Source: Spirochaetota bacterium (GTDB lineage Bacteria > Spirochaetota > UBA4802 > JAFGJZ01). From it: a stretch of 56,977 nt of DNA. Shown here piece by piece: positions 7,937 through 48,857 of the stretch. The stretch is from assembly GCA_027858855.1 (NCBI GenBank), contig JAQIBV010000053.1, positions 1 to 56,977 of the forward strand, written 5' to 3'. The notes below the pieces were generated by a model. It did no database searches. It saw only the letters and a list, made by a program, of their open reading frames with translations, and was not told where the DNA came from. A program made the translations under genes and the position numbers. Positions within the stretch are counted from its first letter, which is position 1; each line of letters opens with the position of its first letter.

Positions 7937-8341
7937 TTGAAAAATAGAATTATTATCTGTTTAATTAAAATAGTCGTTATGTTTGCTTTACTAAATATAT
8001 ATGCCTGTTCTTCCCTTTCTTTAAAGAAAGAGACCTACAGCAACAATATACTTTATGTATATGTTAAGATTGAAGGAAGCAATGTTGCAGAAATGGATCA
8101 AGCGGAGCTTTTTGAAGAATTTGAAAAAAAAGCAGCTACCAGGGCTCTGGGACTAATGATAATTGTTTTGGAAGAAGAGATTCATGATAAAATTATACGG
8201 GAAAGAGTGATCGCTCGACTGCGATCTTTTGAAATGAAACCCGTCTTGCTTGATTATGCAGAGGGTGATTTCTATTCGGACGCATATTACAGGTTTGAAC
8301 TAAGTGATTTTCAGGAGGCAATTGATGGAACCAGGAGATAA
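7937..8341 (+). CDS. Small lipoprotein of unknown function
   Basis: A 134-residue protein starting with TTG. The N-terminus has basic residues, a hydrophobic stretch and a plausible spirochaetal lipobox, NIYAC, with Cys24 as the lipidation site. The mature part contains a long Glu/Lys-rich helix and no family I recognise. Its final codons overlap the start of the methyltransferase gene by 17 nt, and the Shine-Dalgarno AGGAGG of that gene lies inside it. The pair is therefore probably cotranscribed and coupled. The TTG start is chosen because the nearest ATG would remove the signal peptide. Confidence 0.72.
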   Translation: MKNRIIICLIKIVVMFALLNIYACSSLSLKKETYSNNILYVYVKIEGSNVAEMDQAELFEEFEKKAATRALGLMIIVLEEEIHDKIIRERVIARLRSFEMKPVLLDYAEGDFYSDAYYRFELSDFQEAIDGTRR

Positions 8342-44821: not shown

Positions 44822-45412
44822 TTATAACCAGCTTTCCCATGAGTCTTGGAAAATAACGGGTATGCCATAATTTTTGCATACCCGAATCGTATGACCGGTA
44901 CCACCCGATTCGGGTTCATCGGGATCGACATAAAATAGAGCAGCCACTGGTTTATTAAACTTGTCTGTTCCCAAAACCTTCATGGTGTCTCGTATCAGAT
45001 ATTTACTTTTGGCCGCTAAAGTTTTGTTTTTGTTGCGATTGCGAATCATACTCTCATTTTTTGGTGTCGCTATTATTGTCTGGTAAATTGCCTTTTCCTC
45101 TTGGAATGTCGAGAGGTCTTCTGGATACAGATATTGAGCAGATGCTATCATTGCTTTTTTACGATGCCCTACATACGGAGCCACGATCTGAATTCTGGAG
45201 GGATCCACTTTTTTAATGCCCTCGATAAATGCAGAATCCGAACCTTCGGCATTGCCTGATCTGAAGATTATGGACGGATACTTTTGAGCCAGCATTTCTG
45301 TTAACAGTTCCGCTTTATGTATATATATCTCCGGGATATTGCGTTTGCCTTCAAAGAGCACAACCGGCGCATCATGGCTTTCTATTAAACCCGCGAATTC
45401 TTTTAATATCAT
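44822..45412 (-). CDS. SLOG-like (YspA/DprA-fold) nucleotide-binding protein
   Basis: A 196-residue cytoplasmic protein with a Rossmann-like pattern: VVLFEGKRNIPE on the first strand, then IIFRSGNAEGSDSAFIEGI, which matches the SG.A.G.D loop of the SLOG superfamily (DUF2493/YspA, DprA, LOG), then IVAPYVGHRKKAM, and near the C-terminus SGGTGHTIRVCKNYGIPVIF, another SLOG-type turn. SLOG proteins bind nucleotides or nucleotide-derived ligands and occur in defence and stress systems. It lies 85 nt downstream of the tandem-AAA+ gene on the same strand, with a 10-bp hairpin between, and is probably part of that operon. No catalytic role is evident. Confidence 0.72.
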   Translation of the reverse strand: MILKEFAGLIESHDAPVVLFEGKRNIPEIYIHKAELLTEMLAQKYPSIIFRSGNAEGSDSAFIEGIKKVDPSRIQIVAPYVGHRKKAMIASAQYLYPEDLSTFQEEKAIYQTIIATPKNESMIRNRNKNKTLAAKSKYLIRDTMKVLGTDKFNKPVAALFYVDPDEPESGGTGHTIRVCKNYGIPVIFQDSWESWL

Positions 45413-45464
45413 ATTAAACTCTCATTATATCTTTACTGTTTTATATTAATCACAGATTGTGGCT

Positions 45465-45489
45465 CAGGTATCCCTAAACGGGATACCTG
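45465..45489 (-). other. Intercistronic hairpin between AAA+ and SLOG-like genes
   Basis: Perfect 10-bp stem CAGGTATCCC with GGGATACCTG, loop TAAAC, 8 nt beyond the AAA+ stop. Without a U-tract it may slow or modulate transcription into the SLOG-like gene, or protect the mRNA end. Confidence 0.5.
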
Positions 45490-45497
45490 TTGGCTCT

Positions 45498-47729
45498 TTA
45501 TGCGAAACCGACTTGTTTCTCTTTTTTGTTGTCACGGTGATTGGACTCCTGCGCCAGGCGACCAATAATCTCGGCCGAAGTAATATCTTTTTTTGCCACA
45601 AACTTATAGGCATTTGCAACTGCTCTATAGTCTCCCAGGGTTAACTCGCTAATTGTCATAAGTTTATCAAGATCCCTCTTTTTGGGGAGACCTGTTAGTT
45701 TTGAGAAATAGTCTTTATAAACAGGTAAATACTGATCTGTTTTTAAAGCATTAAATTGTACTTTAAAGTTAAACCGTCGTATCGCGGCGGAGTCAAGTAG
45801 AGATTTCATGTTTGTAGCACAGATTAATATTCCTTTAAAATTTTCCATCTGAGATAAAAGTTCGTTTGTTTGACTCAACTCCCAAGACCTTGAGTTTGTT
45901 GATCGTTCTTTATAGAATGTATCGGCTTCATCGATAAAGAGTATTTGACTGCTTTTTTCGGCTTCACGAAATGCTCTATTTATAAACATCTCGGTTTCCC
46001 CTACATAAGGGCTAAGTAAATCAGAGGCTCGCTTTAAACATATTTTAAGTTTAAGTTGTGACGCAAGATATTTGACAAACTCTGTTTTACCAGTCCCTGG
46101 AATGCCATATAGAAGAATATTTGCATTGTACTCTTTATCAGATTTTGTTCGCATAAAGTTTGCAATTTGTGAAAGCGGCTCGACAAGATCATCAGCAGGA
46201 AGTGATGTATTATTATAATCAACATTATACTCCGCTGCAATATTAAAGAGACGCTCCTTTTTATGAGGTCTTCCTGTTATTAGCTGCTCGTGCTGTTCAA
46301 GAATATTTTCGATTATAGTCAAAACGTTTTTTTTCTTTTTAATGTTTTCTTTGATTATTGAAGAGGCGGCTTCACATGCGGAAGCGATACCTGCAGCATT
46401 TACTTCATACTCGTTAGAATAGTTCTCAATTTTTTCACTATCTATAATGGACGCGAGTGGTCCACGGCCAACTATGTTTTTCCAGATTTTTTTTCTTTCT
46501 GCCGAGCCAAAGCCCTCAAAAAGCAGGCTAAACGAGAAACGACGTAGATGTGATTCTTCGACATTTTGTGTATGGTTTGTTATCCAGATCATTTTTACAT
46601 GTGAACGATCAAGCAGATCGTTTATCCAGCCCTTATCTTGGTGGGGGGTTCTAAAAAACCCCATAGAATTGATCAAATAATCGGCCTCATCAACAATGAG
46701 TACATCATTTTCGGTAACAATATTGATTGCAGCTTCAAGAGCGATTTGTCGACTGCCGCGACCTGATGAAGATTTTCTTGTAGTTACGAAAACCGGTCGT
46801 TTTTTTACGCTTCGCACAAGCGATCGCGCGTATTCTGTTTTGCCGGTTCCCGCGCGACCATGAAGAAGAATATTTGCCGGACCGCTGCAATTAAGTATAT
46901 CTTTGATTATTTCAGAATATTCTTTTTTTGTTGTAAATGATCTTAGTGAAAGCGGCTTCTTTCGATCAATATGAATATAAGAATTCATTATCGAATCCAC
47001 AGCCTCTAAACCGGATGCAAATTGCAGCACACTTTCATCGACATCTACTCCAAGAGAATTTCGGCTACGGCTGCACTGGGATAAAACGCCACTTTTTAAA
47101 AGATTATTTTTAGAGTTCATCAAATAGCTGATTTCTGCCTGATCGAGCCCGGTAATTTGAGAGGCTGTTTTAATACTGCTGCGACGACTGTTACCCAAAG
47201 AGGCGATTGAATTTTCAAAATCATACTCGTCAAGCTCTATGGCAATACAATATTTTAGCAGTTCTATCTCATTTTTCTGCAGTGAAAAAACCGATGCTAA
47301 CCCCTCTTCACGCCTTATAGCCGCTGCTCTATCAGATGAAGACATCTTCAGCTCCTCTTCCAGAATATCTAAAAGAAATGATCGAATAAAGGTGGTGACT
47401 TTTTTTCGACCACAGGTGGGAATAGTACGCATTAAACTGCTCCAATTTAGACTTCTTGTATAAACATCATCCAATTCCCTCAGTATATCCTCTGAGAGAT
47501 AACCTCTTGGGCTTACCTTTTCCCAATACTCAAATTCTGATACAAATTCATTTTTAAATTCTCTTATAAGTAAACATCTGCGTTTTTCTGATCTAAAAAA
47601 AGATTCAAAAATATAGTCAATAATCTGATCTGTAATAAGATTTTGCTGAAACATATGCTTATAATAACTTACCGTAATATGGTGCACAGAAAGTCCACAG
47701 TGTTGAGCCGAAAAATGGTTATGTTGCAT
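45498..47729 (-). CDS. Tandem AAA+ ATPase, divergent from a WYL regulator
   Basis: A 743-residue cytoplasmic ATPase. Residues 1-250 are a helical N-terminal region of no recognised family. AAA+ module 1 (about 255-440): Walker A GRAGTGKT (291-298), Walker B DVLIVDEAD, sensor 1 ITNHTQN and HLRRFSF. AAA+ module 2 (about 510-735): Walker A GIPGTGKT (542-549), Walker B ILFIDEAD (596-603), the YVGETE substrate-loop type motif and sensor/arginine region AIRRFNF. The second module resembles the COG0464 (SpoVK/CbbX-like) group. Both sites look active. A GGAGG precedes the ATG. It is head to head with a WYL-domain regulator and followed by a SLOG-like gene, suggesting a stress or defence operon. Confidence 0.85.
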   Translation of the reverse strand: MQHNHFSAQHCGLSVHHITVSYYKHMFQQNLITDQIIDYIFESFFRSEKRRCLLIREFKNEFVSEFEYWEKVSPRGYLSEDILRELDDVYTRSLNWSSLMRTIPTCGRKKVTTFIRSFLLDILEEELKMSSSDRAAAIRREEGLASVFSLQKNEIELLKYCIAIELDEYDFENSIASLGNSRRSSIKTASQITGLDQAEISYLMNSKNNLLKSGVLSQCSRSRNSLGVDVDESVLQFASGLEAVDSIMNSYIHIDRKKPLSLRSFTTKKEYSEIIKDILNCSGPANILLHGRAGTGKTEYARSLVRSVKKRPVFVTTRKSSSGRGSRQIALEAAINIVTENDVLIVDEADYLINSMGFFRTPHQDKGWINDLLDRSHVKMIWITNHTQNVEESHLRRFSFSLLFEGFGSAERKKIWKNIVGRGPLASIIDSEKIENYSNEYEVNAAGIASACEAASSIIKENIKKKKNVLTIIENILEQHEQLITGRPHKKERLFNIAAEYNVDYNNTSLPADDLVEPLSQIANFMRTKSDKEYNANILLYGIPGTGKTEFVKYLASQLKLKICLKRASDLLSPYVGETEMFINRAFREAEKSSQILFIDEADTFYKERSTNSRSWELSQTNELLSQMENFKGILICATNMKSLLDSAAIRRFNFKVQFNALKTDQYLPVYKDYFSKLTGLPKKRDLDKLMTISELTLGDYRAVANAYKFVAKKDITSAEIIGRLAQESNHRDNKKEKQVGFA

Positions 47730-47758
47730 AGCATACCTCCAATATTGTATGTTACCAA

Positions 47759-47789
47759 GATACTGTATCGGGTAGTTGCGAGATATCGC
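47759..47789. promoter_or_regulatory. Palindromes in the AAA+/WYL divergent region
   Basis: GATAC-T-GTATC (47759-47769) and GCGA-GATA-TCGC (47778-47789) lie close together, 30-60 nt upstream of the AAA+ start. They could be binding sites for the adjacent WYL regulator. Confidence 0.35.
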
Positions 47790-47883
47790 CTGAGAATCTA
47801 CCTTGTAAAAAAAATCCGCTTTTTGAGTATTTTTATGAAAAAAACGGCAAGAAAACTACATATTGATTAAATACTCTTTTTGC

Positions 47884-47912
47884 TTGACCAATGTTACTTC
47901 ATATTTTAATAT
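47884..47912 (+). promoter_or_regulatory. Sigma-70-type promoter of the WYL gene
   Basis: TTGACC (47884-47889) and TAATAT (47907-47912) are separated by 17 nt, 30 nt before the WYL start codon. Confidence 0.55.
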
Positions 47913-47942
47913 TTTATATGATTACGACAAGCGGAGGAGCTC

Positions 47943-48857
47943 ATGTCAGACAAACAGATACTCGGCGAAACAACTCAGATAGACATTTTGCGCAGATATC
48001 TGCATGTTATCGCTCTGCTGCAAAACAGGGATGACAAATGGAACAATGGCACTCTGGCTGAAACTTTGTCTGAAGACCCAAATGGCAAATCTTTACTTTC
48101 CGATAGCCATATCAAACACTGTACCGAAGAGTATATAGAAAAAGAGTTGGGGCTTACTCTGACAAGACGCAAGGGAGCGCGTAGTTTTACCTTTGAGAAA
48201 CCTATTGAGAAAGATTTATTGTTAAAGTTGATTAATATCTACTCCATATTTGTTATTGAGGATATACAAAAGGACATTGCGCTACAATCTCTTGTCGAAA
48301 AGTATCCGGAGCAGTGCCTTTGGCTTTTGGGTAGGTTATTCTTTGCAAAAATACAGAATAATATTGTTGAATTTACATATACAAATAATAAAGGAATAAA
48401 GCAACAGGTTACTTGCCACCCCTACCATATCATATTTAAAAACAACAACCTGTACCTTGTCGCTCTTCGTGAATATGACGGAGTGGTATGCCTTTATATA
48501 GTTAACCGTATAAACGATCTTAAGGTAAAGGATAAAAAATTTATAGAAGAGATACCAGATTCGGCAAGCTATTTTAAAAACTCTATCAGCTCGTATATTT
48601 CAAATAGGCCTCCTGTAAGGGTTATCCTTAAGTTTAAAAAAGAGCTGCGTAATAATATAAATGATATTCTTGCGGGGATAGACGCCGAAATTGAAGATAA
48701 AGATGACCACTGTATCGCGGAATGTCTGCTTAACGATACCATGTATCTGTGCAAACAGCTCTTTTTATATGGAGGCGGAGTCGAAATTATTAAACCGGAC
48801 TCTATTAGAAACGAGATGACTGCAATGCTTAAGAAAAGTCTTAGTGTTTATCAGTAA
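47943..48857 (+). CDS. WYL-domain transcriptional regulator
   Basis: A 304-residue regulator. The N-terminal ~75 residues (ILRRYLHVIALLQN...) form a winged-helix-like DNA-binding domain. A linker leads to the WYL domain (about 135-215): NIVEFTYTNNKGIKQQVTCH then PYHIIFKNNNLYLVALREYD and VNRINDLKV, matching the WYL fold that binds small nucleic-acid ligands; here the third aromatic position is part of LYLVAL. A C-terminal extension follows (about 220-304). WYL proteins control CRISPR and many defence loci. It is divergent from the tandem AAA+ gene and has a good promoter (47884-47912), consistent with a local regulator. Confidence 0.88.
   Translation: MSDKQILGETTQIDILRRYLHVIALLQNRDDKWNNGTLAETLSEDPNGKSLLSDSHIKHCTEEYIEKELGLTLTRRKGARSFTFEKPIEKDLLLKLINIYSIFVIEDIQKDIALQSLVEKYPEQCLWLLGRLFFAKIQNNIVEFTYTNNKGIKQQVTCHPYHIIFKNNNLYLVALREYDGVVCLYIVNRINDLKVKDKKFIEEIPDSASYFKNSISSYISNRPPVRVILKFKKELRNNINDILAGIDAEIEDKDDHCIAECLLNDTMYLCKQLFLYGGGVEIIKPDSIRNEMTAMLKKSLSVYQ

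Follow-up and report, generated by a model that had tools for sequence, protein, structure and literature searches.

Several described systems come close to the locus analysed here. The anti-phage system IetAS combines an AAA+ ATPase, IetA, with an S8 protease, IetS. The WYL regulators BrxR and CapW accompany whole BREX or CBASS operons, and three reports (PMC9122601, PMC9122588, PMC9122589) describe WYL proteins as regulators of defence islands. A response of mycobacterial WYL factors to ssDNA or genotoxic stress is described in two further reports (PMC11804915, PMC10693628). Candidate defence operons of the PDC-M27/Zac type encode PLD and helicase proteins, AAA+ ATPases with a winged-helix domain (WHD, PF22977) are associated with eCIS, and DprA-like SLOG proteins occur in phages (phrog_768).

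The window (the whole stretch of 56,977 nucleotides that was analysed) is one entire contig of a 3.35-Mb spirochaete genome. An earlier note on this DNA had proposed a candidate defence cassette of three parts, and all three genes were confirmed as intact open reading frames: a SLOG-like (DprA-like) protein of 196 aa (44822-45412, minus strand), a tandem AAA+ ATPase of 743 aa with two AAA modules (45498-47729, minus strand) and a WYL-WCX regulator of 304 aa (47943-48857, plus strand). The regulator and the ATPase gene lie head to head, as had been claimed, with a spacing of 213 bp, and the ATPase and SLOG-like genes are co-directional with a gap of 85 bp. The segment had also been called repeat-bounded, which did not hold: the sole longer direct repeat (at least 22 nt) within 38-54 kb sits inside the AAA+ gene, where it represents the two Walker-A coding stretches (46081-46124 and 46834-46877, 75% identical), and the segment is syntenic in a sister species. 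A recent mobile insertion flanked by repeats was ruled out by this repeat scan together with the synteny.

The ATPase matched Pfam AAA with an E-value of 2.5e-36 in two stretches, which make up its two AAA modules. Walker A of the first module reads GRAGTGKT (residues 291-298; 46836-46859, minus strand) and that of the second GIPGTGKT (residues 542-549; 46083-46106, minus strand), and the key residues of both were invariant in a 16-sequence alignment. The first Walker pair comprises G291/G294/G296/K297/T298 and D347/E348, the second G542/G545/G547/K548 and D600/E601; both pairs are complete and invariant across the homologues, in agreement with the two intact Walker pairs claimed before. The N-terminus had been said to match nothing, and this has to be corrected. 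A helical region of about residues 130-235 (47025-47342, minus strand) may be a divergent winged-helix domain, as PF22977 was matched below cut-off by the window protein (about residues 139-248, E 0.1) and by the N-terminus of one homologue (E 0.0011, also under the curated score), and a profile comparison with the N-termini of eCIS-associated ATPases gave a weak match (hhalign P 0.0014, probability 18%). The resemblance to the eCIS ATPases is a weak N-terminal one; the Nostoc protein matches WHD strongly (E 2e-63), and the protein of the window does not. An AlphaFold model computed from the single sequence, without an alignment, was unusable (pLDDT 34). No specific NCBIfam family was found over cut-off for the ATPase, PADLOC held no dedicated model for it, and no AAA-WYL or Zac system with a name of its own emerged from the literature searched. 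The protein is without a name in the defence and protein-family libraries searched, and its nearest named relative is IetA.

The regulator scored over the Pfam cut-offs for WYL (1.1e-9) and WCX (2.5e-7), and its similarity to solved WYL proteins was low (best E 0.04). From the alignment, its N-terminus looks helix-turn-helix-like. With BrxR/CapW it shares the WYL and WCX domains, an apparently HTH-like N-terminus and adjacent genes that are possibly under its control. Unlike them, it accompanies a single family of ATPases and not an entire BREX or CBASS operon, and no operator was found. Palindromes upstream of the AAA+ start had been put forward as sites of control by the WYL protein. In the divergent promoter region between the two genes (47730-47942) we counted three inverted repeats with 6-nt arms against 2.1 in shuffled sequences (p 0.32), and the longest arm was no better than chance (p 0.74). 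Operator palindromes were accordingly dismissed for this region, and the one striking palindrome lies instead 3' of the AAA+ gene, at 45465-45489.

To place the pair among other genomes, homologues of the ATPase were collected, and they were patchily present, in 52 of 393 spirochaete genomes. A WYL gene (PF13280) stood no more than 3 kb away at 21 of 54 spirochaete loci, against 0.28 expected from the WYL gene numbers and genome sizes. Pairwise distances of the ATPase and WYL proteins co-varied across 23 alignable pairs (Mantel r 0.83, p 1e-4), a co-divergence to which the common ancestry of the hosts may contribute in part. Roughly 60% of the spirochaete AAA+ loci had no WYL gene within 3 kb, several of them on contigs that end early. 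Outside the spirochaetes, the two genes were adjacent or one to two genes apart on plasmids of Desulfosarcina, Rhodoferax, Thiodictyon, Sphaerotilus, Pantoea, Diaphorobacter, Sphingobium and Leisingera, and an ATPase followed by a WYL gene was found on a phage-labelled, unverified faecal contig (MT835507.1, 11175-26470). Over most of its length the window ATPase is homologous to this family. As judged from the loci compared, AAA+ and WYL are a two-gene module that recurs in spirochaetes, in plasmids of proteobacteria and on a single contig labelled as phage, and the link between them drawn in the earlier note is well supported.

A further feature of the family was revealed at the C-terminus of the ATPase. 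After a linker of variable length, the tripeptide (I/V/L)GF occurred within the last few residues of 56 of 65 homologues by a pattern slightly looser than the tripeptide itself (two proteins have TGF and one IGL), or of 57 when one more protein (L094) was added by eye. The window protein carries it as VGFA (45501-45512, minus strand), and the ATPase of the phage-labelled relative ends in PIGFIH. Neither of the two IetA proteins examined has such a tail, nor do the ATPases of the eCIS type that were compared. It was also missing from a spirochaete ATPase clade (L095, L096, L098 and L099) that has no nearby WYL gene and has cation efflux and panB genes downstream; this clade may have acquired another role. 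Among the ATPases examined, the GF tail is, on sequence comparison, specific to the WYL-linked family. Since a tripeptide is conserved on what would be a flexible tail, we suggest it as a candidate docking peptide. Docking of the ClpX type uses IGF loops, and we take the likeness to the GF tail as a lead only.

The SLOG-like protein had no Pfam match. A comparison with phrog_768, annotated as DprA-like, gave an E-value of 2.7e-15, and three distant homologues matched likewise, which supports the SLOG assignment. The window protein and the phage proteins have a SLOG-type core in common over most of the length; identities were 25-31% among the matches listed, and the window protein is bacterial and belongs to a small subfamily. 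Phage records matching it with at least 80% coverage numbered 119 at a lax E-value limit of 1. Its structural model showed predicted alternating strands and helices at low confidence (pLDDT 47) and found no PDB match at E 0.001; a PDB profile search and scans of viral contigs with this protein gave nothing useful.

Evidence on the relation of the three genes came from the sister species, whose contig JAFGRW010000096.1 is syntenic with the window from 38.1 to 55.4 kb. The AAA+ gene is deleted there (45434-47737), such that window positions 45433 and 47738 correspond to the neighbouring positions 7980 and 7973 of the sister locus, L007. The sister WYL gene is a pseudogene that has lost 755 bp (48029-48783; window 48028 and 48784 correspond to L007 7675 and 7671) and its reading frame ends in stops. 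Between the WYL remnant and an FGE-sulfatase-type gene, the sister carries an AAA_14/DUF4143 ATPase gene (L007:6462-7595, plus strand). The sister SLOG gene is intact and 84% identical, with a dN/dS of 0.094 that also includes the time before the loss of AAA+ and WYL; this agrees with its neighbours, which range from 0.04 to 0.14. As a remnant of WYL and the scar of the AAA+ deletion lie beside SLOG, the three genes stood together before the two species separated, and as SLOG is intact after the loss of the other two genes, it did not depend on them for its retention.

In the window, a perfect 10-bp hairpin or palindrome, CAGGTATCCC-N5-GGGATACCTG, lies just past the AAA+ stop codon (45465-45489) and is the only copy in the genome. 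An 88-nt stretch containing it folds at -21.8 kcal/mol (z -4.6), with no clear T-run on the coding strand. It could be a terminator, a processing site or an operator, and the ATPase transcript may be terminated or processed there, ahead of SLOG.

The genes beside the pair were variable. DUF2779, a member of the RNase H-like superfamily with a presumed 3'-5' exonuclease activity (PMC3985635), was found next to AAA+ or a short way off at no fewer than six loci. In one spirochaete genome (G009, contigs C58 and C7), the AAA+-WYL pair and a nearby DUF2779 gene share a contig, and a SLOG homologue lies on a different one. PDC-M27/Zac-type or related operons adjoin the pair in four places: Rhodoferax (PDC-M27A, E 1.9e-182; PDC-M27B, E 1.3e-242), Desulfosarcina and Pantoea (related PLD and SNF2 genes) and a spirochaete (L108; ZacC, E 2.2e-281). 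The Thiodictyon locus encodes a TmtA-like protein (E 2.3e-70), another locus (L091) a GmrSD-type protein (Orf5/HEC-06), and in Sphaerotilus BREX-2 genes lie upstream and Sir2 downstream. The neighbours run against the defence library were picked by size or position, not at random, and several had no match; as individual cases, the matches make a defence link of the pair suggestive. No nuclease-type or defence effector was found adjacent to the pair in the genome of the window, and none of the window's AAA+, WYL, SLOG and CRP-like proteins matched a PADLOC model of the PDC-M27/Zac type.

These data bear differently on the possible explanations of the locus. In a true three-gene system, the WYL protein would control an AAA+/SLOG operon, SLOG would read a nucleotide signal and AAA+ would be the effector. 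Co-directional genes only 85 bp apart, an arrangement that predates the split of two species and the presence of SLOG proteins in defence and conflict systems all fit such a system. Against it, no SLOG gene was found at the 64 other AAA+ loci, the window standing alone among 65, and SLOG homologues elsewhere had other neighbours, namely IS-type transposases (G049), unknown genes (G009) and metallophosphoesterases (a Microscilla plasmid), with neither AAA+ nor WYL beside them. The strong hairpin past the AAA+ stop also speaks against such a system, and the sister has kept SLOG under a dN/dS of 0.09 without the other two genes. We therefore consider the three-gene system unlikely, and SLOG as a core partner of the pair was ruled out by the neighbourhood data and the sister-species deletion; the gene probably encodes a nucleotide- or ssDNA-binding protein that is independent of the pair and not an obligatory component. 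Metallophosphoesterase as a common SLOG partner was rejected too, as no homologues occurred at other SLOG loci. Two of the four spirochaete genomes with SLOG (G000 and G009) also have AAA+, a sample too small to judge. By the earlier note's own standard, its proposal would be contradicted if the AAA+ homologues of most genomes had no WYL or SLOG gene beside them; this was the finding for SLOG and not clearly so for WYL, which lay within 3 kb at 39% of loci in a set with many truncated contigs. What stands of the proposed defence cassette is the WYL-AAA+ link and a suggestive defence context, and its three-part composition does not.

A divergent system of the IetA type, with a protease as the partner of the ATPase, was considered because in both PADLOC and NCBIfam the second AAA module is matched best by IetA/IteA (PADLOC E 1.5e-40), and the GF-ending tail recalls docking of the ClpX type. 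With 123 bits against the NCBIfam IteA equivalog cut-off of 510, the window ATPase is not IetA, and membership in IetAS was ruled out. The flanking genes given to Pfam included no S8 protease (a subtilase-like gene near locus L057 was the only protease-type exception seen), and both IetA proteins that were examined have about half the length and no tail. The likeness is that of the second AAA module; the window ATPase differs in its tandem AAA modules, long helical N-terminus, (I/V/L)GF tail and WYL partner in place of an S8 protease, and we hold an IetA-type system to be very improbable. A stress or maintenance module, in which WYL would sense DNA damage as in PafBC or SiwR and induce an ATPase that remodels protein-DNA complexes, was considered as well. 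It agrees with the mycobacterial WYL factors, which in the reports cited above answer ssDNA or genotoxic stress, and the DUF2779 partners, as presumed exonucleases, could serve repair. Many AAA+ loci lie among ordinary genes, and in several genomes the next gene is of this kind (cation efflux and panB, SelO, flagellar genes), which leaves room for a role in housekeeping or stress. The patchy presence, the carriage on plasmids and a phage contig, the clean loss in the sister and the adjacency to BREX, PDC-M27, ZacC, TmtA-like and GmrSD genes fit defence better, and the stress module appears to us a rather doubtful explanation.

We favour, with a probability of about 0.6, a defence-associated remodelling ATPase under WYL control whose partners are interchangeable, a function that we infer from comparison of sequences and gene neighbourhoods. 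The regulation, oligomeric state, docking and defence role of such a pair would be as follows. The WYL protein would keep expression from the divergent promoter low and, on sensing a nucleic acid or nucleotide that signals infection or damage, allow induction. The ATPase would then assemble into a two-tier ring, grip its target with the helical N-terminal domain, dock a partner through the flexible C-terminal (I/V/L)GF tail and remodel or activate a nearby effector, such as an exonuclease or a PLD/helicase complex. A bolder form of this proposal, which we put forward tentatively and think improbable, is that AAA+-WYL acts as a portable immune chaperone, in which a single regulated double-ring ATPase would plug via its GF tail into many unrelated nuclease-type effectors. 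If that were true, one sensor-motor pair would be joined to a different weapon from one bacterium to the next.

The comparison defines an unnamed and widespread regulator-motor pair and offers two handles on it, namely the conserved tail and the natural deletion mutant in the sister species. If the pair serves several effectors, this would explain the recurrence of WYL and AAA+ genes in defence islands.
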